The notes below the pieces were generated by a model that ran no database searches, was not told the origin of the DNA, and worked only from the letters and a program-made list of their open reading frames with translations. Position numbers and translations under genes: made by a program. 64,000 nucleotides of DNA from Nitrospira sp. (GTDB lineage Bacteria; Nitrospirota; Nitrospiria; Nitrospirales; Nitrospiraceae). Within the stretch, counting starts at the first letter, position 1. The number at the start of each line of letters is the position of its first letter. This document shows, piece by piece, positions 13,925 to 60,428 of the stretch. The stretch spans positions 124,001 through 188,000 of the forward strand of contig JAFEBL010000017.1 of assembly GCA_018242665.1 (NCBI GenBank), written 5' to 3'.

Positions 13925-14216
13925 GGGCTCCGGCGTTGCGTTCCAGTTTTTTCCGTTCGATTCCCTACGTAGAGTTCCCTCTGCTTCGCCTGCGCGAACA
14001 GATACGGGTATTTCCAATGGAAAATCGAAGACTTCGGTCCAGGTCGCCCACGGGAGGGAAGAAATTTTCTATACCCGGACGGCCTGGGACTCAATCCCGG
14101 CGCAAAGTCGCCGATACAGTATGCACACAGGACGGAGCGCGGCCCGATGAGGGCATCATTCCTATGGTAGGGACAGCCGTCGCGTGAATCCGTGGATTTG
14201 TGAGAACTGGTGACCT

Positions 14217-18566: not shown

Positions 18567-21104
18567 TCACCTCCCGTTCTCCGCATTGCGATAGAACCAA
18601 AACTTCGCTGCCTCTGCCGCGCCGATGTAGGCGACGAGAATGCCGATCAGCGCCGCCCCAAACACCGGCGGTAACGGCTCGAAACCCAGCATTACCCCGG
18701 CTGGTGTGATCGGCAACAGCATCGTGGCCACTCCCACCAGCAAGGTCGAGAGCCACAATCCCCGTGAGGGACGGCTGGTCGTACAGGGTCGCCGAGTGCG
18801 GATCACCAGCACGATGACCGAGGCGGAGAGCACCGACTCGACAAACCAGCCGGTGCGAAACTGGCCGGTCGTCGCATGCAAGACCAGGAGCAAGACGGCG
18901 AAGGTGAGGTAATCAAAGAACGAGCTGACGAGTCCAAAGGTCAACATGAAGCGGCGAATAAAGGGAATGTCCCATCGCCTCGGCCGGTCGATCAGCTCTG
19001 GATCGACGTGATCGGTGGCAATGGTCATTTCCGGAATATCGGTCAGCACGTTCGTCAGCAGGATCTGTTTGGGCAGCAACGGAAGGAAGGAAAGGAACAG
19101 GGACGCGCCGGCCATGCTGAACATATTCCCGAAATTCGCGCTCGTGGCCATGAAGACATACTTCAGCGTATTCGCAAAGGTCTTGCGCCCCTCACGCACG
19201 CCTTCCACCAGGACGCTCAGATCCTGTTCCAGCAAGACCAGGTCAGCGGCTTCCTTGGCGACATCGACGGCGCCATCGACTGAAATACCGACGTCTGCCG
19301 CGTGGAGGGCCGGCGCATCGTTGATTCCGTCGCCGAGATAGCCGACCACGTGGCCGGAGGCGCGCAGCGCCCGGATGATCCGCTCTTTTTGATTCGGTTC
19401 GATTTCGGCGAAGATGTCGATCTCGTCAGCCCTAGCGCGTAGCGCCTCCTCGCTCATCCCGCGCAGGTCGTTTCCGGTCAGCACATGCGGATCCGCCAAG
19501 CCAACCTCACGCCCCACATGGGCCGCCACGAGCGCCTGATCTCCTGTCACGATCTTGAGTGTCACGCCAAGCCGTCTGAGCGCCTCCACGGTCTCGGCCA
19601 TGCCGGTCTTGGGAGGGTCGGCAAACACCAGGAGGCCAAGAAAGGTCATCTCGGCCTCGTGCTCCTTCGAGACCCGGTCGAGGCCTCCCATGTCGCGCAC
19701 GGCGAGGCCGAGGGTACGAAATCCCTGTCCGCTCGCTGTGCGAATCTGTGCTCGCACCGACTGACGCACCTGGTCGATCGGTACCAGCGCACCATCGCGC
19801 CGTTCCGCATGGTGGCAAATGGCCAGCATGTTCTCGACCGCGCCTTTGGTAATGAGCAGATGGGTCTGCGGGGTCGACACCAGCACCGAGAGACGCTTCC
19901 GCACGAAGTCATATGGCTCTTCTTCCAACTTGTGGTAACCCGTAAGATCGAAGGAACGATGGCAGCGCACCGCCTCGTCCAGCGGATTGGGAAACCCGGT
20001 TTCGAACATCGCGTTCAGATACCCGAGAAACAGTACGCGCTCACTGTTGCCACCCTCCACGTCGAGAGCCGCCTGCAGGGTCATCGACCCTGCAGTCAAC
20101 GTGCCGGTCTTGTCGGAGCACAACACGGTCATGCTGCCGAAGTTCTCGATCGAGGCGAGGCGCTTGACGACGACTTGCCGCTCCGCCATCCGCCTCGCGC
20201 CATGCGAAAGGTTCACACTGATGATGGCCGGCAACAATTGGGGCGTCAGGCCCACCGCCAAGGCCATGGAGAACAGAAACGATTCGAGGACCGGACGTTC
20301 GAGATAGACGTTCACGGCAAAAATGCCGAACACAAGGAGCAGGGTGACCTCCAGCAGAAGATATCCGAATCGCCGCACACCGCGTTCAAATTCCGTCTCC
20401 GGCGGCCGGACAACCATCCTGTGGGCGATGCGACCGAATTCCGTCTCCTTGCCGACCCTCACGATCACCACACGAGCCTGTCCACTCACCACGTGGGTGC
20501 CCAGAAACAGGCTATTGGTGCGTTTCTGTAGCGGCGCGTCATCGGGCAACGTCGCCACCGATTTCTCGACCGGATAGGTCTCCCCCGTCAACGTCGCCTC
20601 ATCGACAAAGAGATCCTTTGCCTCCAACAGTCGCGCATCGCCGGGGAGGCTAGACCCGGCAGACAATTCCACGACATCGCCGGGCACGACGCTATTCGCA
20701 GGAATCTCGATCACCTGCCCCTCTCGCCAGACACGAGCCGTGACTTGCACAAGCGCAAGCAGCCCGGCCACGGCGCGCGCCGCACGATATTCCTGACGAA
20801 AGCTTAAGAGGGCGCTGGCCAGGATGATCCCAAGGATAATCAACGCATCACTGCGCTCCGCCAGAAACAGCGACACTCCTGACGCGAACAGGAGAATAAG
20901 GATGATGGGACTACGGAACTGCGCGAGCAGCAAGCGAACCGGGTGACTGTCATGCGCGGGCTTCAACCTGGAAGGCAACGCAACGGCCTGTCGGCGCTCT
21001 GCTTCGGCGGCGGACAGCCCTTCCCGCGTGACTGCCAGTTCACGGAGCAGCACATCCCCGGGAAGAGCCCAGAAGGATCGTTCGTTCAGCATGGCACCTG
21101 ACAT
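18567..21104 (-). CDS. mgtA: Magnesium-type P-type ATPase (MgtA/MgtB-like)
   Basis: 845 residues of the P3B class. Motifs: TGETYPVEK in the actuator, CSDKTGTLT near residue 330, KGAVENML in the nucleotide domain, TGD, and GDGINDAPAL. The M4 signature GLTPQLLPAIISVNLSHGAR is typical of Mg2+-importing MgtA/MgtB, and the C-terminal block LTNVLTDIPEMTIATDHVD is also characteristic. It would import Mg2+ with ATP hydrolysis. The ATG at 21104 or one at 21092 (MLNERSFWALPG) may be used. A tandem Usp gene follows upstream on the same strand, with about 315 bases between. Confidence 0.88.
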   Translation of the reverse strand: MSGAMLNERSFWALPGDVLLRELAVTREGLSAAEAERRQAVALPSRLKPAHDSHPVRLLLAQFRSPIILILLFASGVSLFLAERSDALIILGIILASALLSFRQEYRAARAVAGLLALVQVTARVWREGQVIEIPANSVVPGDVVELSAGSSLPGDARLLEAKDLFVDEATLTGETYPVEKSVATLPDDAPLQKRTNSLFLGTHVVSGQARVVIVRVGKETEFGRIAHRMVVRPPETEFERGVRRFGYLLLEVTLLLVFGIFAVNVYLERPVLESFLFSMALAVGLTPQLLPAIISVNLSHGARRMAERQVVVKRLASIENFGSMTVLCSDKTGTLTAGSMTLQAALDVEGGNSERVLFLGYLNAMFETGFPNPLDEAVRCHRSFDLTGYHKLEEEPYDFVRKRLSVLVSTPQTHLLITKGAVENMLAICHHAERRDGALVPIDQVRQSVRAQIRTASGQGFRTLGLAVRDMGGLDRVSKEHEAEMTFLGLLVFADPPKTGMAETVEALRRLGVTLKIVTGDQALVAAHVGREVGLADPHVLTGNDLRGMSEEALRARADEIDIFAEIEPNQKERIIRALRASGHVVGYLGDGINDAPALHAADVGISVDGAVDVAKEAADLVLLEQDLSVLVEGVREGRKTFANTLKYVFMATSANFGNMFSMAGASLFLSFLPLLPKQILLTNVLTDIPEMTIATDHVDPELIDRPRRWDIPFIRRFMLTFGLVSSFFDYLTFAVLLLVLHATTGQFRTGWFVESVLSASVIVLVIRTRRPCTTSRPSRGLWLSTLLVGVATMLLPITPAGVMLGFEPLPPVFGAALIGILVAYIGAAEAAKFWFYRNAENGR

Positions 21105-38438: not shown

Positions 38439-39344
38439 ATGAAGATGTTGATTGCTGTGGACGGATCGGAATTCGCCGAATGGAGCGTGCAGATGTTGGA
38501 GGCCATCGCCGGTCGACCGCCGGACCGCGTGACGCTGCTGCACGTCGTGGACAGCGCCGCGTTGAAATCCTCCGCTCGCAAACATGCGACCCTGTCCAAA
38601 CAAGCCATCGCCGCCATGACGAAAGCCGGCGACCAGATGTTGCGGCGCTTCGAAGGGTTGGCGAAGCTCGCACTGAAGCAGGCCACCACGAAGCCTCGCA
38701 CCGAGATCGACACCATGCTCGCGCACGGCCGCGTGGCCGACACCATTGCAAAAGTCGCGAAGCAGAAAAAGGCCGACCTGCTCGTCGTCGGCTCCCGGGG
38801 CCTGACCGATGCGGAGCACTATCTGCTCGGCAGTGTCTCGCGCAAAGTCAGCGCTCTGGCTGCGTGTCCGGTGCTCGTCGTCAAGCGGCCGTTGACAGCC
38901 CTCACGCAGGTCCTGTTTGCTGCCGACAGGTCCACACATTCCCAGGGAGCCTGCAGCTTTCTGTGCAAACGGTTTCTGCCGGATTCGGCCCATGTCGTCG
39001 TCACCTCCGTGGTCGAACCCCCGGTCACGGAACTCGCCACCAAATACCTCTCGCGGGACCAGGTGGAACAGATTACCGCCCCCAAGCGCGTAGCGGCAGA
39101 ACAGATGGTGGAAAAACTTCGAACCCGATTCATTGCCGACAACTACGCCGTCACCGCCAAGGTCCAACTCGATCATGTCACAGACGCGCTCCTTCGACAG
39201 GCCGCCTCACGCGACATCGATCTCCTGGTCGCCGGCTCGCGAGGGCTGACGGGGTCCGAGCGGCTGCAGTTGGGAAGCGTCTCGGAAACGTTGCTCAAAT
39301 ACGCGCCCTGCTCGGTGCTCATTGTGCGAGGATGGCGTGCCTGA
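38439..39344 (+). CDS. Universal stress protein, two Usp domains
   Basis: 301 residues made of two Usp domains. Domain 1: MKMLIAVDGSEFAEWSVQML to VVGSRGLTDAEHYLLGSVSR, with the ATP-binding G-loop intact. Domain 2: TQVLFAADRSTHSQGACSFL to VAGSRGLTGSERLQLGSVSE. In domain 2 the first motif reads ADRS rather than the usual DGS, perhaps weakening nucleotide binding. GGAGA precedes the ATG. The last 8 bases overlap the start of the P-type ATPase gene, implying coupled translation. Confidence 0.9.
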   Translation: MKMLIAVDGSEFAEWSVQMLEAIAGRPPDRVTLLHVVDSAALKSSARKHATLSKQAIAAMTKAGDQMLRRFEGLAKLALKQATTKPRTEIDTMLAHGRVADTIAKVAKQKKADLLVVGSRGLTDAEHYLLGSVSRKVSALAACPVLVVKRPLTALTQVLFAADRSTHSQGACSFLCKRFLPDSAHVVVTSVVEPPVTELATKYLSRDQVEQITAPKRVAAEQMVEKLRTRFIADNYAVTAKVQLDHVTDALLRQAASRDIDLLVAGSRGLTGSERLQLGSVSETLLKYAPCSVLIVRGWRA

Positions 39345-42126
39345 CCTGTCTGCACTTGAGATCTGTCGCCTGGCGCCCAGCCAAGTGTTTCGCGCTCTCA
39401 CGACGAGCCCTCAGGGACTGTCGTCGGACGACGTCCGGCGGCGGACCATCCGGGACGGGCCGAATAGCCTGCAGGCGCTGCGCCGCACTCCGTTGATCGG
39501 CCGGTTCGCGCGTCAGTTTACGCACTTTCTCGCACTCCTCCTCTGGGTCGCCGCGGGGTTGGCGTTCCTCGCCGACGCGCTGCATCAAGGCCAGGGTATG
39601 GCCACCCTCGGATGGGCGATTCTCGGCGTCATTCTCATCAATGCGGTGTTTGCATTTCTGCAGGAGTACAAAGCCGAACGTGCCGTCCAGGCCTTACGCG
39701 TCATGTTGCCGGCCAAGGCCTGGGTGATTCGCGACGGGCAGCAACAACAGATCGCCCGGAGCGAGCTCGTGCCCGGCGACGTGCTCGTGCTGGAAGAAGG
39801 CGAACAAGTGCCTGCCGATGCGCGGCTCACGGAGGCCGTCGGCCTGCGTGTCGACAACTCATCGCTCACAGGCGAATCGAAGCCCCAATCTCGAATGGCC
39901 GATGCCGTGACCGACGGCCATCCACTCGACATCGCCAATCTGGTCTTTGCCGGCACCACGGTGTTGTCCGGACATGGCCAGGGCGTGGTCTTTGCCACCG
40001 GGCTCAAAACCGAATTCGGCAAGATTGCGCGCCTCACCACATCAGTCCAGACGGGATTGAGCCCACTCCAGCAGGAGATCGTGAAAGTGACCCACGTGGT
40101 CGCCGGACTCTCGCTGGTCATGGGACTGATCTTTTTTACCATCGGCGTGGGAATGGGATTGGGTTTTTGGACTAGTGCGATTTTCGGCATCGGCATCATC
40201 GTTGCGAATGTCCCCGAAGGTCTGCTCCCGACAGTCACGCTGGCCCTCGCCATGGGCAGCCAGCGGATGGCGGCGCGCAACGCACTCATCAAGCACCTGG
40301 CCTCTGTCGAAACTCTGGGCTGCACGACCGTGATTTGCACCGACAAGACCGGCACGTTGACGGAAAACCGGATGCACGTGGACAAGCTGTACGTCGATGA
40401 CGTGATTGTAGAATCCCGAGAGGGCTGTCTCTTCAGCAGGAACCGCCTCATCAGCGCCGCCGAGGCTGAACGCTGGCGCCCGCTCTTCGATGCCATGGTG
40501 CACTGCAACAACGCCAAGCGCACGCGCCGCCCGGACGGCCGCAGCCAAGCCACCGGCGATCCCACTGAAACCGCGCTGTTGGAGTTTGCCGCCGACCACG
40601 GACTTCTCCATCGAACGCCGCTGCGTCGTATGGGGGAACTGGCGTTCGACGCGGACCGCAAACGCATGACCACGCTCCATTGGAGTGAAGGACGCCTCCT
40701 CGCCTTTACCAAAGGTGCGCCGGAATCGGTGTTGCCCCTGTGCACCAAACAGCAGGGTTCCTCGACGGCCACGACACTCACACTCGACGGGCGCAAGAAA
40801 ATCCTGACCCAAGGGCAAGCCTTTGCCCAGCAAGCCTATCGAGTGCTGGCCCTGGCGATGCGCGACGTGGAACAGGGGGTCGAGACCTTGGAAGCCGACA
40901 ACCTCGAACATGGGCTGACCTTCCTCGGGCTCGTCGCCATGATGGATCCGCCACACCGGGAGGTGCCCGACGCCATCGCCACATGCCGGCGGGCCGGAGT
41001 CCGCGTCATCATGATCACGGGCGACCATCCCTTGACCGCTCTGGCGATTGCGCGAAAGATCGGCCTGGCACAGGCATCGGTAGTGACGGACCCTGGGCGA
41101 TTTGTGCCGGTCATCGAAGGCGCGCAGATCGACGCCTTCAGCGAGGACCAGCTCCGCCGCCTGCTCACGCCCACGTCACCGGGAGAATTCGATCCGATCT
41201 TCGCCCGCATGGCGCCGCGGCACAAACTCCGTATCGTGTCGACGCTCAAGGAGATGCGCCAAGTGGTCGCCGTCACCGGCGACGGCGTGAACGATGCTCC
41301 GGCATTGAAGGCGGCGGACATCGGCATCGCCATGGGCGTCGCCGGCACGGATGTGGCCAAGGAGACGGCGTCGATGATCCTCCTGGATGACAACTTCGCC
41401 ACGATTGTCAGCGCCATCGAAGAGGGCCGGGCCGTGTTCACGAATATCCGCAAATTCATGACCTACGTCCTTGCCAGCAACGTGCCGGAAGTGGTCCCCT
41501 ATCTGGCATTCGGTCTTTCGTCCGCGCCGCTGGCCCTGACGGTTCCGCAAATTCTCGCCGTGGATCTGGGGACCGACATGGTGCCGGCGCTGGCCCTCGC
41601 GGCGGAACCTCCCCAGGGCAATGTGATGGAGGAACCGCCACGGCCCAGAACGGAACGGCTGCTCAACCGTCCCGTGCTGGTGAGAGCCTATGGCTTCCTG
41701 GGTGTGATCGAAACCACCATTGCCATGGGGGGATTTTTCCTGTATCTGCAGAGCGAGGGCTGGACATGGGGAAGCCCGCTCGATTGGAATTCGACTCTCT
41801 ACAAGGAGGCCACGACCGTCACCTTCGCCGGGATTGTCGCCGCGCAGGCAGCCAACGTGTTTGCCTGCCGGTCCGACCGCATCTCCGCGTTTCGTCTCGG
41901 TTGGTTCAGCAATCCGTGGATTGTGATCGGGCTATTCGTGGAGATCACCCTGCTGCTGATCCTCACCTATAGCCCGGTGGGACACTGGGTCCTGGGCACC
42001 GCGTCCCTCCCCGGCTGGATTTTCGTTCCTTTGATCGTGGGAGCCGTGGGACTGCTACTCGCCGACGAACTATACAAACTCATCGGCCGTCGCAGCACCA
42101 TCAGACAACCTGTGCCGGCGAAGTAA
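39337..42126 (+). CDS. Cation P-type ATPase, type IIC (Na/K-pump-like)
   Basis: 929 residues with an actuator TGESKPQ, phosphorylation ICTDKTGTLT (Asp near 336), KGAPESVL, TGDHPLTALAI and GDGVNDAPALKAAD, ten predicted helices and a C-terminal cation-ATPase domain. The M4 signature VANVPEGLLPTVTLALAMGS is characteristic of Na+,K+- or H+,K+-ATPase-type pumps, so monovalent cation transport is inferred. The GTG at 39337, after GAGGA, is favoured as start; a TTG at 39322 also opens the frame. It overlaps the Usp gene by 8 bases. A four-CBS protein follows after about 100 bases. Confidence 0.85.
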   Translation: MPDLSALEICRLAPSQVFRALTTSPQGLSSDDVRRRTIRDGPNSLQALRRTPLIGRFARQFTHFLALLLWVAAGLAFLADALHQGQGMATLGWAILGVILINAVFAFLQEYKAERAVQALRVMLPAKAWVIRDGQQQQIARSELVPGDVLVLEEGEQVPADARLTEAVGLRVDNSSLTGESKPQSRMADAVTDGHPLDIANLVFAGTTVLSGHGQGVVFATGLKTEFGKIARLTTSVQTGLSPLQQEIVKVTHVVAGLSLVMGLIFFTIGVGMGLGFWTSAIFGIGIIVANVPEGLLPTVTLALAMGSQRMAARNALIKHLASVETLGCTTVICTDKTGTLTENRMHVDKLYVDDVIVESREGCLFSRNRLISAAEAERWRPLFDAMVHCNNAKRTRRPDGRSQATGDPTETALLEFAADHGLLHRTPLRRMGELAFDADRKRMTTLHWSEGRLLAFTKGAPESVLPLCTKQQGSSTATTLTLDGRKKILTQGQAFAQQAYRVLALAMRDVEQGVETLEADNLEHGLTFLGLVAMMDPPHREVPDAIATCRRAGVRVIMITGDHPLTALAIARKIGLAQASVVTDPGRFVPVIEGAQIDAFSEDQLRRLLTPTSPGEFDPIFARMAPRHKLRIVSTLKEMRQVVAVTGDGVNDAPALKAADIGIAMGVAGTDVAKETASMILLDDNFATIVSAIEEGRAVFTNIRKFMTYVLASNVPEVVPYLAFGLSSAPLALTVPQILAVDLGTDMVPALALAAEPPQGNVMEEPPRPRTERLLNRPVLVRAYGFLGVIETTIAMGGFFLYLQSEGWTWGSPLDWNSTLYKEATTVTFAGIVAAQAANVFACRSDRISAFRLGWFSNPWIVIGLFVEITLLLILTYSPVGHWVLGTASLPGWIFVPLIVGAVGLLLADELYKLIGRRSTIRQPVPAK

Positions 42127-45500: not shown

Positions 45501-46310
45501 CTACAATCGATCCAACAATTGTTGCTTCTTCAACCGGTAGTCTTCGTCCGTGATCAACCCCTGCTCATAGAGCCGCTTGAGGATAGCAAGCCGTTCCTCC
45601 ACTGTCGCCGCCGAAGGCGGCGTGGCCGTGGCGGCCGGGGCAGCCGGCGCTGCCTCCTCACGCCGGCCGGCATAATCGATCACGAGTTCCGGCTGATCAG
45701 AGCGAAACAGACTCAGGCCATCGGACGAGGTGGGCACCAAGGCCTGGCGGTCTCCCGGCACGAGTTCATAGAGTGCTCCGGCTTGCGTAAACAGCGGGTC
45801 TTTCCAGATTTGCCTTCTGATCGACGGCAGCGTCACCGCGACCCGACAATTGGCCAGGCGGAGATGGAAGTTCCCGGCCTCGACAAACCAGGCTCCGGAG
45901 GTCACCTGAGTCACGCCGGTTTCCAGTGGGCGGGCCAAGGCAAACAAGATCTGGTCATCGGCCGTGGCGTCCTGAAAGGCCCGCTGGAGCGACGCCCCCA
46001 GGTACCGGACGTCTTCGTCGGCAAACACCGGCTCGATGGCACCACGATACGACACCCCCAGCAATGGCTGATGAATGCTTCGCACCATGACGGTCCGTAG
46101 AAGCTGCTCCCATTCGTGGCTGTCCAATCGGGCAGATTTGGCTGCGCCCTCGTTCGGCTTGGCGGTCACCCCGGGTGTGCGCGCGGTCACCCGGACCAAT
46201 CGCTGGTCGTCACAGGCAACACAAAGAGGTGCGGGCTGCGGCGTGACGGCCGTACAACCGGCTGTCAGCAGGCACACCCACACCCATCCGAATCCCAGAC
46301 TCCTTCGCAT
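45501..46310 (-). CDS. Lipoprotein with C-terminal SHOCT domain
   Basis: 269 residues with a lipobox LTAGC after a hydrophobic leader (SLGFGWVWVCLLTAGC). The middle, about 50-210, is unknown and rich in beta strands. The last 30 residues (EERLAILKRLYEQGLITDED) are a SHOCT motif, a short helical region that often mediates oligomerisation, preceded by an Ala/Pro linker. AAAGGGC before the ATG at 46310 marks the start. It ends the run after the Cyc2-like gene, 38 bases further on. Function unknown. Confidence 0.7.
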   Translation of the reverse strand: MRRSLGFGWVWVCLLTAGCTAVTPQPAPLCVACDDQRLVRVTARTPGVTAKPNEGAAKSARLDSHEWEQLLRTVMVRSIHQPLLGVSYRGAIEPVFADEDVRYLGASLQRAFQDATADDQILFALARPLETGVTQVTSGAWFVEAGNFHLRLANCRVAVTLPSIRRQIWKDPLFTQAGALYELVPGDRQALVPTSSDGLSLFRSDQPELVIDYAGRREEAAPAAPAATATPPSAATVEERLAILKRLYEQGLITDEDYRLKKQQLLDRL

Positions 46311-46348
46311 GCCCTTTCCCTCACCAATGCCAGCCGTCGCCACCCGCC

Positions 46349-47818
46349 TCAGTAGGCAAAGTCCAATCCGACCAGCATGGTTTGCCCCTTCAAATCCCCA
46401 CCGTTTGGACCAACCGACTGCGTACGGTAGCTATTATATTCTGCATGCAACGCCAAATCGGTGCGTGTCGAATGGTGAATGAAGTATCTGGCGAGGACCG
46501 TATGCGAATCGACGTCGTTATAGTTGCCTTTGAAGACATCGGTGTTACCGTCGCCATGCCGGTCGTTGCGAATCACATCATACCGGTAGGCAAAAAACCA
46601 GTCCGGCATATCGAAGAACAGGGCCGGCGCATAGTCCAATTCGACAAACGCGCCGTTCCAGGAGGCATTCTGCGGGGTCGGAATGCCCTGGGACGCGAAC
46701 AATTGCGCGCTGTCATGTCCATGCATGATCGCGCCGAACACATTCCACTCTCCGTTGAAGGTGAGGCTCACGTCGATGCCAATTCGCGTGAACGGCTTCC
46801 CGCTGCCCGCCACACCTTGGCAGGTGGGACAGGTGGCATTCACCATCGTGGGCGCTTGGCCGTAGGCGCCGAAGATGCCCACTCGATTGCCGGTCACGAT
46901 TCCGTAGCCGCCGAACGATTGCGTGATGTGACCATAAAAATTCACGTTGCGCCCGCCGGTGCCGCAGGGCGTATTGGGAGGGCAGCCGCCCAAGGGACCT
47001 GAAAAGGAGTTGGTGGCCAGCGCGGTCAAGGAATACCGAAGGTAGCCTTCGGTAGACGGCGTTTTCATGAGGCCCGACAATTCTCCGCCGGGCTGGTTGT
47101 CCCCGAGCAGGAACGAATTCGGATTGAGGTAGGAACTGGTGGAGGTCCCGCCGATCGTCGCGGTGTACGGTACACCCGGCGTGTAGTGGTACATCACAAA
47201 GGGCGTATTCAGGGTCGGACTGCGCTTCTCGCTGAACGGAAGGTCCAGTTCGAATTTTCCCACGCGCAGGTTCAACAGGTAGTTGCCGGGCTCCGACTTG
47301 ACGCCGAAGTACCGTTCTAATCGCATCAGGCGTACGAAGGCGCTTTCAAGGTCCCCGTCCGACGCACCGGTACCGAAGCCCGCGCTGCCAAGCCCCGGCG
47401 TGTAGACGACTCCGAAGGCAATGTCGCGGTGCAACGTCCCGAAACTCAGCAGATCCAGCCCGGTGAACCCGAATCCTCCGGTGCTCAGGCCGCTGCCTTC
47501 CGTCCGCACCTGGGCGGCTTGATAGCCCACCGTCGCCCGGATCGACACGGGCCAGTATCCCATGCCGATGCCCTCATACACCGGTGAATCTGCATCGGAT
47601 CCCAATTGATACCCACGATCTCGGAACAGATTTCCGAAGTCGTTCAGTTTGGGGAACCCCGGCACGTGGCACACGTTACACTTGAAATCATACTTACGTG
47701 CAAACGCCGGAATAGCCTCGGCCTTTTGCACGAGCCCGCTCAATTCATAGCTCACCAGGGCGAATAAGACGAGCAACGCCGCGATGCCCGCCCTGGCATG
47801 GATGTGTGTACATTTCAT
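46349..47818 (-). CDS. Outer-membrane monoheme cytochrome fused to a beta-barrel (Cyc2-like)
   Basis: 489 residues. After a signal peptide (about 1-35) the mature start AIPAFARKYDFKCNVCH carries one heme CxxCH (residues 47-51), followed by FPKLNDFGNLFRDRGYQL. From about residue 85 the sequence alternates aromatic and polar residues in beta strands, ends in DFAY, and looks like a 14-16-stranded outer-membrane barrel. N-terminal heme plus FPxLxxFGxxFxxxGY plus porin barrel is the plan of Cyc2-type iron-oxidising cytochromes, though Cyc2 identity is not proven. GGGGAGGGGATGAGGCG lies upstream. A cupredoxin-like protein gene lies 77 bases upstream. Electron entry or exit through the outer membrane is inferred. 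Confidence 0.72.
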   Translation of the reverse strand: MKCTHIHARAGIAALLVLFALVSYELSGLVQKAEAIPAFARKYDFKCNVCHVPGFPKLNDFGNLFRDRGYQLGSDADSPVYEGIGMGYWPVSIRATVGYQAAQVRTEGSGLSTGGFGFTGLDLLSFGTLHRDIAFGVVYTPGLGSAGFGTGASDGDLESAFVRLMRLERYFGVKSEPGNYLLNLRVGKFELDLPFSEKRSPTLNTPFVMYHYTPGVPYTATIGGTSTSSYLNPNSFLLGDNQPGGELSGLMKTPSTEGYLRYSLTALATNSFSGPLGGCPPNTPCGTGGRNVNFYGHITQSFGGYGIVTGNRVGIFGAYGQAPTMVNATCPTCQGVAGSGKPFTRIGIDVSLTFNGEWNVFGAIMHGHDSAQLFASQGIPTPQNASWNGAFVELDYAPALFFDMPDWFFAYRYDVIRNDRHGDGNTDVFKGNYNDVDSHTVLARYFIHHSTRTDLALHAEYNSYRTQSVGPNGGDLKGQTMLVGLDFAY

Positions 47819-47894
47819 CGCCTCATCCCCTCCCCTCACCTCTCCAACGATTGATCGCTCATCGAATCTGTTCCCGGCTTGACTCCATGCCCGG

Positions 47895-48758
47895 TTATTC
47901 AGGCGGGAGTTCATCGCCGCCGCCGGCTATTTTCCATTCGACGTCGACCGGCCGGACGGGAAATTCAAAGCGAGATTCGACCTGGGCGTTCGAACCGATT
48001 TCGAGCGGCTGCCGCATGACATGGGGTTCGTCATACACGGGACGAGAGGCATTGAACTTGACGATATTGAACCCGGGATGCCAGGCGACCAGCGTGTAGG
48101 AACCGGGAGGAATGCCGGCGATTTCGAATTTTCCCTGTTCATCAGTCACGGCAAAATAGGGATGGTCGAGGGCTGCCGCCCAGGCATTCATATGCACATG
48201 CACATCGCACTGCAGCCGCAAGCCGACCCCGCGCGCCCGGACCATCGTGGCTGCGATTTCGCGGTTCGCCGTCGGCATCGCAAGATTGAAGAGGCTTTGT
48301 TTGTCGCTGAACAGGTGCGGATTGTGGAGGATCGGTTCGAAATTGATCAGCGCCACTTCTGCCGTACGGACAAACGGCATCGTGTACCGTTCGAACTGGC
48401 AGGCCCGCCCCGTGGGATGTGAGGCGCTTTTTCCCATACGCAGCGGATACGCCGAAGCGGCGGGCTTACCCCGTTCGACTCGTTCGAGATACACGAGGAC
48501 TTCCTGTACGCCGTTCGTGCCCGGATCGATTCGCAGCGCCGGTGACGGCACCTGCGTGCCGCAGGAATCCAGATCCGCAAACACCTTGAGCGGCGGCAGC
48601 TTCGGAATACTTCCCTTCCAGACCGCCTGACCTTTGACCGTGCCGCCATCAGACACGTCAATCACTTCGTAATCCGCATATCCGCTGGTGGCGGGGAGAA
48701 GCCATGCCAGACAGCACAGGAGCAAAAAGGGGGAATGGCGATGTCGTCGTGGAGACAT
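47895..48758 (-). CDS. Exported cupredoxin/carboxypeptidase-regulatory-like protein
   Basis: 287 residues with a signal peptide (about 1-28). The N-terminal half (GGTVKGQAVWKGSIPKLPPL) is an Ig-like sandwich. The second half holds a LQCDVHVHMNAWAAALDHPY stretch, in which Cys, two His and Met suit a copper site, followed by the carboxypeptidase-regulatory motif YFAVTDEQGKFEIAGIPPGS. Proteins of this kind (plastocyanin-like, methylamine-utilisation type) often accompany outer-membrane or periplasmic electron transfer. GAGG six bases before ATG 48758 supports the start. It precedes the Cyc2-like gene in the same orientation, suggesting a shared role. Confidence 0.68.
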   Translation of the reverse strand: MSPRRHRHSPFLLLCCLAWLLPATSGYADYEVIDVSDGGTVKGQAVWKGSIPKLPPLKVFADLDSCGTQVPSPALRIDPGTNGVQEVLVYLERVERGKPAASAYPLRMGKSASHPTGRACQFERYTMPFVRTAEVALINFEPILHNPHLFSDKQSLFNLAMPTANREIAATMVRARGVGLRLQCDVHVHMNAWAAALDHPYFAVTDEQGKFEIAGIPPGSYTLVAWHPGFNIVKFNASRPVYDEPHVMRQPLEIGSNAQVESRFEFPVRPVDVEWKIAGGGDELPPE

Positions 48759-48804
48759 GCAGGACCTCATCGACATACCGAGGGCCGGATCGCCCAGGGT
48801 GGTG

Positions 48805-48844
48805 AAAAGAAAAAAGCCCGAACCTCCGCGAGGAGATTCGGGCT
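48805..48844 (-). terminator. Rho-independent terminator of the O-methyltransferase gene
   Basis: On the minus strand a stem AGCCCGAA / TTCGGGCT (48815-48844, extended by an inner CTCC/GGAG pairing) is followed by a run of T (48805-48815). It lies between the O-methyltransferase stop (48968) and the cupredoxin-like gene start (48758), so it ends the upstream minus-strand transcript. Confidence 0.85.
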
Positions 48845-48967
48845 CTAGAGCTGATCGCTCGTTGGCCTCAATATGTGTGCACGCGGCGCAGCGTAATGAA
48901 CCGTGCTCCGCCCTGTCAAGTACCCATCGGCCGTTCAGAAGGCGAGCCTACCGAAGAGGGTTGCCAG

Positions 48968-49981
48968 CTATTTGATACCGATGACCATGGAGTCCGGCCC
49001 GGCCAGCGGTTCCACTTTGGTGCGCCGGAACCCGGCCTGCTTCATCCAGTTCCGGCAATCCGCACCGGTAAAGTCAAACCCGCCGTGTGTCTCGATCAGC
49101 ATGTTCAAACTCATCAGCAAGCCGAACGCGTTCTGCCTCCGCCCATCGTCGATCAAGGCTTCATGGACGATCAACGCGCCCCCGCTCGGCAATGCCGCAT
49201 GCGCTTTGCGCAACAGCATCATTTTTTCTGTGAGATCCCAGTCGTGCAGGATGTGTCCCATGATGAGCACATCCGCTTTCGGCAACGGTTCCTTGAAGAA
49301 ATCCCCTGGATGAAACGTTACGCGCTTCTGCACCCGTTGACTCTTGGTATAGGCCTCGAAGACCGGCTGCACAACCGGGAGATCCATGCCCTGCCCGGTC
49401 AGATGCCGGTGCGCCAGCGCGATCTCCACCGCCACGCCACCCTGAGCGCACCCGATATCGACGAAGGATTGATAGCGCTGCCAGGGAAACTGTGCAGCCA
49501 TGGCACGCGCCGTGCCCCGGCTGAGACCCGTCATGGCCTTGAGGAATCCTTCCAGCCTCCGGGGATCAGCGTAGAGCGTGCCAAAAAAATCTTCGCCCGT
49601 TTTCACCTCGTTCTGGGGCTTGCCGGTCTGCAGGGCCTCCGTCAAAGAGCCCCAAAACCGGTACAGCCTGGCATTGGCCATTTCAAGGATGCCGCCGACA
49701 TAGGTTGGCTTGGTGCGATCCAAAAACAGCGCGGTCTCCGCCGTGTTCGCATAACGTGCGCCAGCCCGCTTCAACAGACCAAGCGCTACCAGCGCATCGA
49801 AAAAGTCCCACGCGCTCCGTGGATGCAGTTTGAGCCGCGCGGCCAACGCCTTTCCCTCAAGCTGCCCCTTGGCCAACTCGGTGAAGAGGCCAAGTTCTAC
49901 CGCCGTCAGTAACGTTTTTGAGCCCCAAAATCCGAACCCGATTTGCAGCAGTCGATCAGGAACCAACGGACGACCGGCCAT
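48968..49981 (-). CDS. O-methyltransferase (dimerisation plus SAM domain)
   Basis: 337 residues of the plant-type methyltransferase-2 family. Residues about 1-100 form a winged-helix dimerisation domain ([20 protein letters not shown]). The SAM domain has [19 protein letters not shown] as motif [35 protein letters not shown] with the catalytic-type His/Asp pair, and [11 protein letters not shown]. Substrates of relatives are phenols, hydroxy-indoles or polyketides; none can be named here. AAAGGA precedes the ATG. It is followed by a strong terminator. Confidence 0.85.
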
Positions 49982-54501: not shown

Positions 54502-55632
54502 CTATCTGACCAGGATTTTGATCGCCTGCTTGGCACTCTCCAGCAGCTTGAGCGTGACCGCCCTCGCAGACCGGTTGTACACCCGCAGGGTCATCAACCG
54601 TCGGAGATCGGTCGCCCATGCGAGCTTGTACGGTTGTGCACCCTGCAACAGATCGATAGTCTTCACCCCATCACGAATGGCCTGCTCAATTCGGTGATGC
54701 AGCAGCAGCATGCCAGGGCTGGACCTTGGAACGGCGGCCGGATCGAATCCTGGCAGATAAAAGTCATACGTATCCCCATAGACAAACCCATAGATGGCCG
54801 CAATCGGTCGCCCCTCCAACTCCAGCCAGTCAAGGCTCACGCGACCTCGTTCGCTCAAAACCTGCACCACCTCCCGGTGAAACCGTTTGGGCATCTCCTT
54901 GGCAAACACCCCGCCATCAGCCCGGGCAGTCCATCGCTGTTGGTGGAGCGTCATCAATGATTCGAGGGCGGCCTCGACCTCGGCAGGACTCGTGGCGCGT
55001 CTGTACCGTATGTCGCCCGCCTGTTGAAGGCACTTCGTCTTCCGTTGCAGCGTATAGCGTGTGTTCCGCCCAAGGCCGGCACGATAGGCATCGACCGTTC
55101 CGGGCAGACGGATGACGGGGCAGCAAGCCGTGGCGGTCATTTCGCCGACCTTGCCCGTCTCGCCGAACCACTCGTTCCACAGATCCAGGGTGGTGGACTC
55201 GGCAGGCATATCCGAGAGCGTAAGAATGTCCCACTCGTTCCGCGCGTCGGTGAACAGGTAGCGGGAGAGACTCTGTAGCAAGGCCGGTTTATGGTGGCCG
55301 CTCGCTATCAGATCGAGATAGGACGAGCCGACGCCGTCGCTGCCCAGAAATCGCCATTCTCGGAACCAGTTGAAGCCGAGGCCCGGAATGCCGGTCCGAC
55401 GGGCATAGAACGGCGCGATGCCGACCACACGTTCGCGATCGTCGAACGCCAGCAGAATCTTGAGACACCCATCACCCAAGTAATGTTTCGACCAGTAGTA
55501 CAACCACTCCCACGTGAGAAAGACACTATGCCCTGGCACGGAGTGAAGCAGTTGCTCCCATTCACAAGCCAGTCCCTTGAATTCCTTCAACGAGGTGACT
55601 GCGCGAATAGTCAAGGGAGCTGCGTTCGTCAT
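54502..55632 (-). CDS. FemAB/CelD-like GNAT-fold acyltransferase
   Basis: 376 residues with the PF13480-type fold: EWEQLLHSVPGHSVFLTWEW at the N-terminus, then HQQRWTARADGG, LDWLELEGRPIAAIYGFVYG and LLHHRIEQAIRDGVKTIDLL with the terminal YKLAWA. FemAB and CelD-like proteins attach amino acids or acyl groups to sugars or peptidoglycan; here a role in modifying the extracellular polymer is likely. Its ATG overlaps the exosortase stop (ATGA), so the two are translated together. The deacetylase gene starts 13 bases later. Confidence 0.85.
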   Translation of the reverse strand: MTNAAPLTIRAVTSLKEFKGLACEWEQLLHSVPGHSVFLTWEWLYYWSKHYLGDGCLKILLAFDDRERVVGIAPFYARRTGIPGLGFNWFREWRFLGSDGVGSSYLDLIASGHHKPALLQSLSRYLFTDARNEWDILTLSDMPAESTTLDLWNEWFGETGKVGEMTATACCPVIRLPGTVDAYRAGLGRNTRYTLQRKTKCLQQAGDIRYRRATSPAEVEAALESLMTLHQQRWTARADGGVFAKEMPKRFHREVVQVLSERGRVSLDWLELEGRPIAAIYGFVYGDTYDFYLPGFDPAAVPRSSPGMLLLHHRIEQAIRDGVKTIDLLQGAQPYKLAWATDLRRLMTLRVYNRSARAVTLKLLESAKQAIKILVR

Positions 55633-57215
55633 GGCACATACTCTTGCAGGAGAGGAAAAACGAGGCCGGCAAATTCTTCAGGTGCTGTCCACGCATCTGC
55701 GTCCTGAACAATCCGAGGCTCCGCCGACACCAGCACCAGGGCACCATCGGTGCGCCCGTGCCGGAACACCTGCATGATCGTCGCCAGCTTGGCCTGAAAA
55801 CGGCCCGCATAACTCCTGCCATCGATGTGATACCAGAACAGGGCCGGGACGGGCCGGTGGCTCCTGTCGAGCATGGTGCGATTCGCTGATACCGTCCGCT
55901 CCCCCACCAGTAGGGCCGCGGCGAGGGCCTGCTCATGGAGCGGCGCCGTCTGCATCCCCACCAGTTCTTTTCCCTGACGTTGGGCTTTCGTATACGCCAC
56001 AGAGAGATTCACGCGACGGCCATCAGGTGCGCGATAGGTCCGCGCCAGTGATGCGTCCGCATCCAGCAGGTTAATCAATGATCCGGTGTTCGACTGACGG
56101 TCGATAACCCAATCACCGATCTCGGCGGGAAATGTTGCCAGGTCCTTTTTGAGTCCTGTAGTCCCGTGATGAAGCCAGGACAGAACCAGCGTCGCACCGG
56201 CAAGGGTGGCGCAAGCCAACCACCAGGCTCGGCGCCATGCCGGGACTGGCGAGAGTACGACGCCGGACACGCCTTCCGGTTCCGGCAACAGCGAGGTCGG
56301 CGCTCTCCGTTCCAGTTTGCTCAGGAGCCAAGCCCCCATGAACAGAAATCCGAACGCAACCCAATCGACAAACAAGCCCTGTAGCATATGATACGGCCCA
56401 TGCAGGTCTTTGCCCCCCGCTTGCGCATAGAGGCCCATAACTGTCACCCGCAGCCAGTTGGCCATGATGGCCATCAGGACCGACGACAACACAAGCGTGA
56501 CCCGGCTCCACCACATCCGCAGCGTGAGATGGGCCAGCGGTAACCCGACGGCCAGCACGGCGATGAGCAATCCAGCCCCGCTACATTCGCGCGCCACTTC
56601 CAACGTGACCGTGGGCAGGAGGATGAAGATACGGTGTTCCAGGATCACGGGAATGCCGATCGCCTGCAGCATGGAGGCAGACATGTTGGCGGTGAGGAGT
56701 TGAAAGGGCCATTCCAGCGGTTCGGTCAGGACATCCAAGACGGGCGTCATGAAGATCAGATAGGCGAGCGGAAAGGCCATCGCCTTGAGATACGTAAACC
56801 CACACAGGAGCAGGACGAGTCCCGCCAGGACCAGGATCAACGCGAGGCTTTCGATGGTCATGACGCCGGCCACGTCACTCGCCATGAGTAGGAGCGTCGC
56901 ACTCACGAGCCAGAGCGCACCCGGCACGAGCGCCGGTTGAACCGGAATCCGTTTCAAGTCCGGCCATTGAAGCCAAGTCAGATACAGACTAACCAACGGG
57001 ACAAGAAATCCGTGAGAAAAGCCGTAGCGATTCCACCACAATTCCCAAAGATCGCCCCAGGCGCGCGCGGAGAGCAGCCAGAACAACAGACCGAGTCCGA
57101 GAACCCGCAGCGTCAACGGATCGACGCCGAACCATCTCGTACTCCGGCCCATCAAGGAAGACCGTGGCTGCAGAACGGTTCCCCTTTCGGACGTATGGCT
57201 GAGCGAATGTTCCAC
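55629..57215 (-). CDS. Exosortase with fused EpsI-type C-terminal domain
   Basis: 528 residues. Residues about 30-310 form an eight-helix exosortase: catalytic Cys in ARECSGAG, Arg in NWLRVTVMG and His in GPYHMLQG, the conserved triad. Residues about 320-528 form an EpsI-type domain (FPAEIGDWVIDRQ, then VAYTKAQRQGKELVG and WYHIDGRSYAGRFQ). Exosortases cut and sort PEP-CTERM proteins to the cell surface. Start at GTG 57215 one base past the TPR stop with GAGGAG upstream is preferred; ATG 57152 (MGRSTRWFGVDP) would be the alternative and lacks a ribosome binding site. Confidence 0.85.
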   Translation of the reverse strand: MEHSLSHTSERGTVLQPRSSLMGRSTRWFGVDPLTLRVLGLGLLFWLLSARAWGDLWELWWNRYGFSHGFLVPLVSLYLTWLQWPDLKRIPVQPALVPGALWLVSATLLLMASDVAGVMTIESLALILVLAGLVLLLCGFTYLKAMAFPLAYLIFMTPVLDVLTEPLEWPFQLLTANMSASMLQAIGIPVILEHRIFILLPTVTLEVARECSGAGLLIAVLAVGLPLAHLTLRMWWSRVTLVLSSVLMAIMANWLRVTVMGLYAQAGGKDLHGPYHMLQGLFVDWVAFGFLFMGAWLLSKLERRAPTSLLPEPEGVSGVVLSPVPAWRRAWWLACATLAGATLVLSWLHHGTTGLKKDLATFPAEIGDWVIDRQSNTGSLINLLDADASLARTYRAPDGRRVNLSVAYTKAQRQGKELVGMQTAPLHEQALAAALLVGERTVSANRTMLDRSHRPVPALFWYHIDGRSYAGRFQAKLATIMQVFRHGRTDGALVLVSAEPRIVQDADAWTAPEEFAGLVFPLLQEYVP

Positions 57216-57216
57216 G

Positions 57217-59388
57217 TTACTCCTCGATCTTATTCGCCGCCACCATGCGGGCCGCACGGTCAGACTCCGCGAAATGACCGGGCAGCAGCAGGGCCTGCTT
57301 CAATTCGGCCAACGCGTCGTCCTGCTTGCCGATCTTCGAAAGCGTCATCGCGTGGTGATAGCGCACGACCGGGTGCTGAGGCAGTGCCGTCGACGCTTCA
57401 GCCAATAACCGCTGAGCGTCGGCGAACCGTTCCTTCTTAAAATAAATCCACCCCAGCGTATCCTTGATAGCGGGATTCGCGGGCGCTCGATCGAGCGCAG
57501 CCAGGGCCAACCCGAGAGCATCATCAAGATCCTGCCGCTCGCTCAGATCCGCGGCGAGATTGTTCGCGGCGACGACATTGCCCGGATCCAGTTGAACGGC
57601 CCGGCGATACTGCGTATTGGCCGCATCGAGCTGCCCCTGCGACGCCAGCGTCATGCCTAAGGCCGTGTGGAACTCCGAATTGGTTTCTTCCTTCTTGAGC
57701 GCAACCTGAAAGGCAGACTGGGCCGCAGACAGCTGATGTCGGTAGAGATAGAACTGGCCCAGTTCATAGTGCGTCAAGGCTACGTCCGGCGCGAGGGCCC
57801 TGGCTTTCCGGAAGGCCCTCTCGGCTTGATCCAGTGCGTGCTGAGCCACATACCATCGCCCTGCGAGACGCCAGATGTTCGGATCGTGCGGAGCCTGGGC
57901 CACATGCAGGTTAAGCATGCGCTCTGCTTGCGGACCTTGGTTCGATTCGGCCAGGGCTCTGAGAGAGTCCTGGAGAATCGCGAGATCGCCTGGCGCACGT
58001 GCGAGCGCCTCTGAGAGGAGCACCGCCGCTTCGGCCGGTCGTCCTTGCAGTGACCGCAGGCCCGCCAGCTTCACGTAGCCGATCGATTGTCCGGGAAGTT
58101 GCCGGAGGATCTCGCCGAATACGTCTTCGGCCTTGGTCCACTGTTTCGCCTGGGTCAATGCATCGCCGGCCAGCAGCGCGCCTTCGGGATTGGAAGGGTC
58201 TGACCGCAAGGCCTGCCAGGCTTCATGTTCGGCCTCGGACGATTTGTGCTGCCCAAGATACAACCTCGCCAGCGCCAGATGGGCCGTGCCGTTCTCCGGC
58301 CGGAGTTTCACCGCCTCACGTAGCGCGTCTTCCGCCTGTCCCGCACGGCCCTGCGCCATTCGCGCTATTCCCAGGTAGAGATGGGAAGCGGACAGGGTCG
58401 CGTCCCGTCCGATGGAGCGTTCGAACAGGGAGACGGCTTCAAGCAGATCATTGCCTGCCAGGGCAATGCGGCCTTTGAAATAGAGGCCCATGGCATCATG
58501 TTCATCCGCCTCGAGAATGGGCTTCGCGAGCCCTTTCGCCGCTTCCACCTGCCCGGCGGCCAGCTTGAGTTCGATGAGCGCGTTCCGGGCCTTCTGGGAA
58601 TTCCTGTCGGCCATGAGTCCGGTCAATTCACGTTCCGCGTCATCTCGTTTTCCGAGCGCACGATACCGGTCCGCCAGCAGCAGCCTGACGAGTTCCTGGT
58701 CGTGGCTCAATTCCACTGCTTGGTCAAATTCTCGCCTGCCTTCATCGACCGAACCGGTCGCACACAAAAAATATCCGTGAGCGAGGCGCGCCTCCACGGA
58801 CCGGGGATCAGCCGCCACCGCGCGGGCATACCATTCGCCCGCCGCGCTGAGATCCTGCCGCGTGAAGTACAGGTTGGCGAGGCCGAGGAGCGGTCGCAGC
58901 ATGGTGGGATCAAGGTCGGCCGCTTGCTGAAGGAAGGCGATCGCGTCCGCGACACGGTCTTCGCCAAGCGCGACGCCGGCACGCAGAAGATACCCGGCGG
59001 GATGGCGGGGATGCTCGGAGATCAGCCCTTCTGCCAGTTTGGCAGCCTCATCGACTCTTCTAGCCGCCAGGTACAGATCGCCAAGTGACCAGCGTGCATC
59101 GACATGAGCGGGATCAAGCTGGACGACACGCTTCAGTGCCGTGAAGGCGGTAGGAATATCGCGAGAGTTCGATGCGGCTGAGGCGAGCTTCCAGTGCACA
59201 TGGGCACGATCAGGACTGTCCCGCGCAGCGTTCTTGTACTCGATCACCGCCTCGCGGAATTGCGCCTGTTGCACGTACGCATCTCCGCGGCGCTCGTGCC
59301 GAGCGGCCCGGTCGCTCGAAGACTCTGAGCAGGAAAGCAGCAGAGGCTCGAGGATCAGAAGACAGCACAACGCAATCCACTTTTCCAT
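57217..59388 (-). CDS. TPR lipoprotein of the exosortase system (PrsT-like)
   Basis: 723 residues with a lipoprotein leader (lipobox LLSC near residue 19) and about 19 tetratricopeptide repeats, many with the pattern A.xxL.xAV.L.P (for example ALREAVKLRPENGTAHLALA). In PEP-CTERM systems a large TPR protein (PrsT) helps assembly or export of the surface polymer; length is smaller than the usual 900 residues. It lies directly upstream of the exosortase, whose GTG is one base after the stop. Two in-frame ATGs are near; 59388 starts the leader. Confidence 0.8.
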   Translation of the reverse strand: MEKWIALCCLLILEPLLLSCSESSSDRAARHERRGDAYVQQAQFREAVIEYKNAARDSPDRAHVHWKLASAASNSRDIPTAFTALKRVVQLDPAHVDARWSLGDLYLAARRVDEAAKLAEGLISEHPRHPAGYLLRAGVALGEDRVADAIAFLQQAADLDPTMLRPLLGLANLYFTRQDLSAAGEWYARAVAADPRSVEARLAHGYFLCATGSVDEGRREFDQAVELSHDQELVRLLLADRYRALGKRDDAERELTGLMADRNSQKARNALIELKLAAGQVEAAKGLAKPILEADEHDAMGLYFKGRIALAGNDLLEAVSLFERSIGRDATLSASHLYLGIARMAQGRAGQAEDALREAVKLRPENGTAHLALARLYLGQHKSSEAEHEAWQALRSDPSNPEGALLAGDALTQAKQWTKAEDVFGEILRQLPGQSIGYVKLAGLRSLQGRPAEAAVLLSEALARAPGDLAILQDSLRALAESNQGPQAERMLNLHVAQAPHDPNIWRLAGRWYVAQHALDQAERAFRKARALAPDVALTHYELGQFYLYRHQLSAAQSAFQVALKKEETNSEFHTALGMTLASQGQLDAANTQYRRAVQLDPGNVVAANNLAADLSERQDLDDALGLALAALDRAPANPAIKDTLGWIYFKKERFADAQRLLAEASTALPQHPVVRYHHAMTLSKIGKQDDALAELKQALLLPGHFAESDRAARMVAANKIEE

Positions 59389-59463: not shown

Positions 59464-60320
59464 TTACGATGCCTGCGCGGGCCTGATCGACCGACCTTTC
59501 CACAGCAATCCGACGACCCCGCTGCTCAACAAGAGGAACATCGCCGGCTCCGGCGCACCCGCCGCCGCAGACTTTGGCTCGGCGTAAATGAAGTCGTCCA
59601 TGGCCACCACGTCGATGGCACCGCCGTCGTTCGGCCCCAGGATCGCATTGCCGGTGGTGATGGACACCCGGCTGATCAGCTCGTCGCCGTCGAACTTGAC
59701 GCCCAAAAACGACAGACCATTGTTCGCGGCTAGTACATAGAATTTGCCCAACGATTGGTTATTGGCCCCGAACATTCGATCGACGTGGTCCGCGCTCGAT
59801 CGACGTCCGTGAAGACGGCGCCGAATGCGGTCGTGACCGCGGGGATGGTCTTGTTCGATCCTGGCTGAAAGAAGAGTTGCTCCGTGACGATGCTGTTGGT
59901 CGGCGCGAAAATGCGGGGACTGCTGAACGAGGTGAAGGTGGCGGGATAGGTGGAATTGATGTTGCCGAACCACGTCAGCGTGGCGTCATTGGGAGCGGCT
60001 TGACCGCTGATGGAGAAGGTGGTGGCCGCCGGCTCGTAGAACGCGCCCCGGTTGTTGAGGAACAAATCCTTGGGCATGTTGACCAACGGCGGAGCAGCGG
60101 CTCCACCTCCGTCCCAATTGATCTCCCGGCGGCCTGTGGTGAACGGCCCCGGCGCATTGCCGTTGTTGGCGCCCCCGATCGCGGATCGAAACGCATCGAC
60201 CGTATCCAGAATCGCACCGAAGTCCGAAAAGACAATCGAGCCGGCAGCCGCCAGCGAGGGCAGCGACAGAAACGCACCCAGCACGATCATCATCAGGCGG
60301 CGCATCGATAGCTTGTGCAT
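59464..60320 (-). pseudogene. PEP-CTERM protein gene interrupted by a frameshift
   Basis: The gene starts at 60320 (GAAGGAGG before ATG) with a signal peptide ending SLAAAG. The first frame reads to GAVFTDVDRARTTSIE and then loses sense; the sequence resumes one frame over as FGANNQSLGKFYVLAANNGL, LGVKFDGDELISRVSITTGN and the sorting signal PEPAMFLLLSSGVVGLLWKG. Together they match a common PEP-CTERM family (FTDVDxxxTTSIEFFDxNNQSLG). A single-base deletion near 59773 explains both halves. Either a real loss, phase variation or a sequencing error. It lies in the exosortase operon, and a repaired form would be its substrate. Confidence 0.75.
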
Positions 60321-60428
60321 GTCATCCTCCTTCGTCGTAGGGTCACGCACCTGAACCCTACGCTGGGACCTGACTTGCCGGCATCGTCGCCATACGAGGG
60401 CATACCCGCATGCAGGACAGGTGCAGAC

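Follow-up and report, generated by a model that had tools for sequence, protein, structure and literature searches.

Cyc2 is a leading marker of neutrophilic iron oxidation, and its periplasmic acceptor has not been established outside Acidithiobacillus. Members of the family carry the motif AXPXFAR[Q/K][T/Y], then CXXCH, with PXL four residues on, in a protein of at least 365 aa that ends in a porin, a 16-strand outer-membrane barrel (Keffer et al., PMC8406198), and much of the electron chain downhill of Cyc2 has been called unknown (PMC8406198). The described systems that come closest to the locus considered here are Cyt572 of the acidophile Leptospirillum, which belongs to Cyc2 Cluster 3, the Cluster 1 Cyc2 proteins of the neutrophilic iron oxidisers Gallionella, Sideroxydans and Mariprofundus, and the rus operon of Acidithiobacillus (cyc2-cyc1-cup-...-rus). 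Closer to the host, Nitrospirales are reported to have Cyc2 homologues, for which a role in oxidising Mn(II) has been proposed in Manganitrophus (PMC9040806), and further homologues are reported from sand-filter MAGs of Nitrospira (PMC12070406). The available excerpts of these two papers describe Cyc2 homologues in Ca. Manganitrophus and other Nitrospirota, as here, and no cupredoxin partner (PMC9040806, PMC12070406).

The locus lies in a window of 64,000 nucleotides from Nitrospira sp., by which we mean the whole stretch of DNA that was analysed. It encodes a Cyc2-family monoheme cytochrome-porin beside an exported, predicted type-1 cupredoxin. Since Cyc2 homologues have already been reported in Nitrospirales and in Nitrospira MAGs, the porin adds to a known kind of Cyc2; the literature searched, which covers part of the field, yielded no description of a cupredoxin of this architecture beside Cyc2-family genes. 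The pair resembles the rus operon in combining a cytochrome-porin with a periplasmic copper protein, a likeness of gene content, but it has no linked oxidase genes and its cupredoxin appears to be set in a carboxypeptidase-regulatory-like domain.

Organisation of the locus

An earlier note on this DNA, made from the sequence alone, had placed a Cyc2-like cytochrome-porin and a cupredoxin-like neighbour at 46349-48758, and both ORFs were confirmed, on the reverse strand. The porin gene (46349..47818) encodes 489 aa with a signal peptide at about residues 1-34, and is supported by the ORF and its ribosome-binding site, by congener orthologues, and by the motif, profile and fold evidence given below. 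Its longest ORF runs from 47914; the ATG at 47818 is preferred because a purine-rich ribosome-binding site precedes it and because this start is common to the orthologues. The cupredoxin gene lies upstream on the same strand at 47895..48776, with 76 bp between the two, and encodes 293 aa; an alternative inner start is found at 48758.

Only 5 bp past the porin gene, again on the reverse strand, is a gene for a predicted lipoprotein (45501..46343) with a lipobox-like LTAGC and a C-terminal SHOCT domain, the latter matched by Pfam SHOCT above the cut-off. This gene is syntenic in most congeners. On the other side, a hairpin resembling an intrinsic terminator, with 15 pairs and then a T-rich tail (48813..48846, reverse strand), separates the cupredoxin/porin operon from an O-methyltransferase gene upstream of it (48968-49981, reverse strand). 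As the hairpin sits past the O-methyltransferase gene, the cupredoxin, porin and SHOCT lipoprotein genes look like a transcription unit of their own, and they may well be co-transcribed.

The cytochrome-porin

The N-terminal region of the porin reads AIPAFARKY-DFK-CNVCH-VPGF-PKL, an exact match to the Cyc2 family motif. AIPAFARKY (47690..47716, residues 35-43) corresponds to AXPXFAR[Q/K][T/Y], CNVCH (47666..47680, residues 47-51) is the heme c attachment site, and PKL (47645..47653, residues 56-58) is the PXL found four residues past CxxCH, all three on the reverse strand and the first and last assigned by the published definition (PMC8406198). CNVCH is the sole CxxCH of the protein and stands near the mature N-terminus. 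The spacing from AIPAFARKY to CXXCH equals that of Gallionella Cyc2, and the length of 489 aa compares with a family minimum of 365 aa. The sequence features from which the earlier note had started are all present, namely the heme CxxCH at the mature N-terminus (CNVCH, read at 47680-47666), the FPxLxxFGxxFxxxGY pattern, which occurs as FPKLNDFGNLFRDRGY, and an aromatic C-terminal residue, the sequence ending in ...GLDFAY.

In 21 congeners there are full-length orthologues at 79-96% identity, and in a further congener the gene is truncated by a contig end. Loss of the CxxCH among orthologues had been named beforehand as an outcome that would speak against a Cyc2; the site is kept in all full-length orthologues examined. 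Purifying selection acts on the gene (dN/dS 0.03-0.13), and a profile of the window porin family and its paralogues was matched in 119 of 296 Nitrospirota genomes. Conservation of this kind, together with the shuffled controls described below, lies far outside what chance would produce. Scans of the cytochrome-porin with Pfam and NCBIfam matched no model. Proteins of the classic-Cyc2 type and of the Leptospirillum type are likewise without a Pfam match, so the silence of Pfam says nothing against a Cyc2 reading. With phmmer, neither the porin nor the cupredoxin had a meaningful match among PDB sequences, and a scan of viral contigs found no relative.

The AlphaFold model of the porin, built from a 32-row alignment, is made of beta hairpins, and the modest confidence of this model and of that of the cupredoxin is due to shallow alignments. 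As to the beta-barrel proposed in the earlier note, the PDB matches of the model are outer-membrane porins, PorB first, together with OmpF and OprP/OprO (E down to 4e-8, from a model of low confidence), but only 13 strands are formed against the expected 16, at a mean pLDDT of 53. PorB is also the fold match reported for Cyt572 (PMC10654088), and OprP/OprO that reported for Cyc2 (PMC8406198). As these are general porins, the fold would suit an ordinary solute porin whose heme site has a structural role or arose by accident. Across distant relatives, however, CxxCH and the surrounding FAR/PXL motif are conserved more strongly than the rest of the protein, and they are common to the Cyc2 of iron oxidisers, so that an ordinary porin seems extremely improbable. 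A Cyc2-family protein is preferred, probably located in the outer membrane and presumably loaded with heme at CNVCH.

Placement within the Cyc2 family

The earlier note had called the porin Cyc2-like and had held that silence of a Cyc2 HMM would count against this; the family motif is present and self-built Cyc2 profiles do match. A Cluster 1-type profile, drawn from 80 named loci, mostly of Gallionella and Sideroxydans, that were gathered with a two-row classic-Cyc2 alignment, matches the porin at 44.9 bits (E 4e-10, Z 1e6), significantly only over residues 29-71, which are the cytochrome part. None of 20 shuffled versions of the porin matched this profile. The Leptospirillum-type, Cyt572-like profile matches over the full length, barrel included, at 142.8 bits (E 7e-40), again with no match from shuffled porin, and comparison of the window-porin profile with the Leptospirillum-type profile gives E 2.5e-49 over 457 columns.

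The Leptospirillum-type set is a single Nitrospirota family whose attribution to Leptospirillum is inferred, partly through family-specific residue spacing. Its proteins are about 555-570 aa long and have A-Y-[PA]-G-F-[AS]-R-[KNS]-Y ahead of CxFCH. No other family agrees as well with the published spacing of aromatic residues and glycines in Cyt572, and spacing-tolerant matching alone singled this one out; the position numbers printed for Cyt572 gave no direct match to any locus.

In the tree, the window clade and the Leptospirillum-type set stand together against Cluster 1 and an Acidobacteriota group (support 100/99), and the Cluster 1 rows fall on their own side of a branch without the window clade (99/99), which places the porin outside Cluster 1. 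A tree in which the porin is made to group with Cluster 1 loses 9.8 log units, but the AU test does not quite reject it (p 0.055). From the profile matches and the tree, the porin is most reasonably classed as a Cyt572-type, Cluster 3-like Cyc2 homologue, by reference to a set that probably comes from Leptospirillum. This placement agrees with a published similarity network, in which Cyt572 is derived from a cluster that includes homologues of Nitrospira and Acidobacteria (PMC10654088).

Like Cyt572, the porin is a predicted monoheme cytochrome-barrel fusion with a FARKY-type heme motif; it matches the Leptospirillum-type set along its full length, and the models of both resemble PorB. It is shorter (489 aa against about 555-570 aa), its host belongs to a genus of neutral-pH nitrite oxidisers whereas Leptospirillum is an acidophile, and it has a cupredoxin neighbour, unlike the Leptospirillum-type loci examined. 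With Cluster 1 Cyc2 it shares the signal peptide, FAR motif, CxxCH, PXL and, as predicted, a C-terminal barrel, but Cluster 1 has FARQT in place of FARKY, aligns significantly in residues 29-71 only and lies on the opposite side of a well-supported branch. As a separate observation, a probable Leptospirillum genome (loci L209 and L208) has several Cyt572-like genes, one of which is followed by a small monoheme cytochrome.

The cupredoxin neighbour

The Cys/His/Met-rich site that the earlier note had suspected of binding copper proved to be real. The cupredoxin was aligned with 14 relatives, 12 of which are only 21-31% identical to it, and in these 15 sequences eleven residues are invariant, including H151, C190, H193 and M196, which make up the His/Cys/His/Met ligand set typical of type-1 copper. 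The predicted ligand His151 is encoded at 48324..48326, and Cys190, His193 and Met196 lie in CDVHVHM (48189..48209), where C-x2-H-x2-M is invariant, both on the reverse strand. With this set conserved, the protein is expected to carry copper. Its gene, too, is under purifying selection (dN/dS 0.12-0.16).

In Pfam, the window protein matches CarboxypepD_reg/fn3_3 only, which is the carboxypeptidase-regulatory-like part, and gives no match to Copper-bind (PF00127); a relative in a Ca. Sulfotelmatobacter record (L177:5411-5989) matches Copper-bind above the cut-off. Residues ~105-204 of the structural model (pLDDT 59.6) match plastocyanins, amicyanin and pseudoazurin, with Z up to 9.7 over 84-93 residues and rmsd 2.2-2.6, and the outer part of the model, residues ~39-55 and 205-275, matches rhamnogalacturonan-lyase and carboxypeptidase D domains. 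Because the inner residues match cupredoxins and the outer ones match lyase and carboxypeptidase D domains, the protein is probably a carboxypeptidase-regulatory-like domain (about residues 39-55 and 205-275) that is interrupted by a plastocyanin-like one (about residues 91-204). Conservation of the ligands, the fold match and the relative's Copper-bind match together support the earlier description of this neighbour as cupredoxin-like.

A cupredoxin with additional domains has been described in Sideroxydans lithotrophicus ES-1. According to the available part of that report, Slit_1816 has adhesin- and polysaccharide-lyase-like domains and is induced during magnetite oxidation (PMC12016527). 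The window cupredoxin also matches a polysaccharide-lyase domain, fn3_3, a likeness by description only; Slit_1816, however, is given in the same part of the report as significantly larger, clustered with two multicopper-oxidase-motif proteins and not adjoining cyc2 (PMC12016527).

Linkage of the porin and cupredoxin genes

The porin and cupredoxin genes are syntenic in 22 congeners. About seven genes of the cupredoxin family occur in this 4.06 Mb genome, most of them away from Cyc2-like genes, and each of the two Cyc2-like genes of the genome has one family member less than 1 kb away. Given seven copies in 4.06 Mb, we estimate that chance would place a cupredoxin within 1 kb of about one gene in two hundred. 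The second Cyc2-family gene (G000:C13:97223-100159, locus L185:4110-7178) is found in the order cytochrome-porin, diheme cytochrome c (Cytochrom_C), cupredoxin, which is the order of cyc2-cyc1-cup in Acidithiobacillus (PMC10654088), and the spacing between its cytochrome-porin and cupredoxin recurs in congeners. More widely, a member of the cupredoxin family was found within ~4 kb either side of the Cyc2-family gene at 8 of 57 Nitrospirota loci, which were picked for spread and are partly non-independent, against about one expected by our estimate. At four Acidobacteriota loci a family member lies directly downstream of the Cyc2-family gene.

The earlier note had also advised a search for downstream periplasmic cytochromes. 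No other CxxCH protein is encoded near the window operon, but the paralogous cluster does supply the diheme cytochrome c, and at Cyc2-family loci without a cupredoxin a mono- or diheme cytochrome c is often found in that place. As one or the other recurs in the same position, the slot beside Cyc2-family genes may be that of an interchangeable periplasmic one-electron carrier, for which this pattern is support and not proof.

Close relatives of the porin in neighbouring genera (L186-L191) have no cupredoxin neighbour, so the pairing is not obligatory, and a wider role for the cupredoxin is possible since most of its approximately seven copies do not adjoin Cyc2-like genes. Porins retained without a cupredoxin in related genera, and further copies of the cupredoxin family in the genome, are both consistent with the two genes being mere neighbours, with the porin using another carrier and the cupredoxin belonging to another chain. 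This is, however, decidedly unlikely: the arrangement is syntenic in 22 congeners, both genes are under strong purifying selection, and porin and cupredoxin genes are found together independently in the paralogous cluster, elsewhere in the Nitrospirota and among Acidobacteriota.

A possible route for electrons into the cell

We think it probable, with moderate confidence, that the pair is an electron-inlet module, in which the Cyc2-family (Cyt572-type) porin oxidises an external donor and passes the electrons to the periplasmic cupredoxin. The outer-membrane monoheme cytochrome-barrel would oxidise a dissolved donor of single electrons, either at the pore or within it; Fe(II) would be the simplest donor and Mn(II) a possible one. 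The electron would then pass from the porin to the type-1 cupredoxin, whose gene immediately precedes that of the porin in the operon, and from there through the periplasmic cytochrome pool to a terminal oxidase. Gene order, motif, homology, ligand conservation, selection and the recurrent gene pair are observed for this module, and we infer the electron transfer between its two proteins, the donor and the direction. To our knowledge, the genus is known for nitrite oxidation and not for iron oxidation, which counts against an inlet, as do the low confidence of the models (porin 53, cupredoxin 59.6), the relatives L186-L191 without a cupredoxin and the AU p of 0.055.

The same proteins could run outward, the cupredoxin reducing the outer-membrane heme and electrons being released to an extracellular acceptor. 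Direction is not fixed by sequence, and the potentials of type-1 copper and monoheme cytochrome c permit both directions in principle, which counts in favour of such a route. Against it, the characterised Cyc2-family proteins in the cited literature are Fe(II) oxidases (PMC8406198, PMC7029218), and Mariprofundus Cyc2, at +208 mV, is poorly suited to mineral reduction; an outward flow of electrons is very improbable on these grounds.

Alternatively, the porin may serve to hold metal, in the periplasm or on the pore side, at a useful redox state, for acquisition or detoxification of iron or copper, with the cupredoxin as its copper-handling partner and no energy gained from an external donor. 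Several observations fit: the host group makes its living from nitrite, cupredoxins of this kind form a multicopy family with members elsewhere in the genome, and a fragment matching Pfam CopB (copper resistance; L232:1-300, G022:C10) lies a few kb from a congener's 411-aa Cyc2-family gene. The recurrent partner is nevertheless a one-electron carrier, either cupredoxin or cytochrome c, and such a partner is more in keeping with electron transfer than with metal storage; we hold a role in metal homeostasis to be unlikely.

If electrons do enter by this route, the finding bears on whether Nitrospira can draw electrons from metals. Where water treatment removes iron and manganese, Nitrospira predominate among the nitrite oxidisers. 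A conserved cupredoxin partner in several lineages is moreover a concrete candidate for the acceptor of Cyc2 electrons. A bolder reading, which we offer tentatively and regard as rather doubtful, is that porin and cupredoxin form a general, as yet unnamed electron-inlet cassette of Nitrospirota and Acidobacteriota, that the cupredoxin fills the place of the periplasmic acceptor still wanting for Cyc2-family proteins, and that nitrite-oxidising Nitrospira could draw part of their living from Fe(II), Mn(II) or electrodes.

The host and other features of the window

Congeners carry NxrA in one or two copies, the best copy being 96-98% identical to the query, and the genus is therefore that of the Nitrospira nitrite oxidisers. 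In the window's own assembly no nxrA was found, and no Molybdopterin ORF of NxrA length. A host without nitrite oxidoreductase was considered and rejected, as most congeners tested have nxrA and other fragmented assemblies lose part of it where a contig ends. For that reason its absence here is put down to the assembly, probably through collapsed repeats, complete congeners having two similar copies. The ammonia monooxygenase family had no match in the host genome, and the control genomes were likewise unmatched.

Elsewhere in the window, three large P-type cation ATPases (11204-14017, 18567-21104 and 39322-42126) lie among universal-stress and CBS-domain proteins at 11204-42126, a concentration that looks unusual by eye only. 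An exosortase-like gene is found at 55629-57257. At 59464-60350 on the reverse strand, two overlapping ORFs in different frames, one with a signal peptide (59730-60350) and the other with a PEP-CTERM-like end (59464-59973), look like a single PEP-CTERM protein split by a frameshift.
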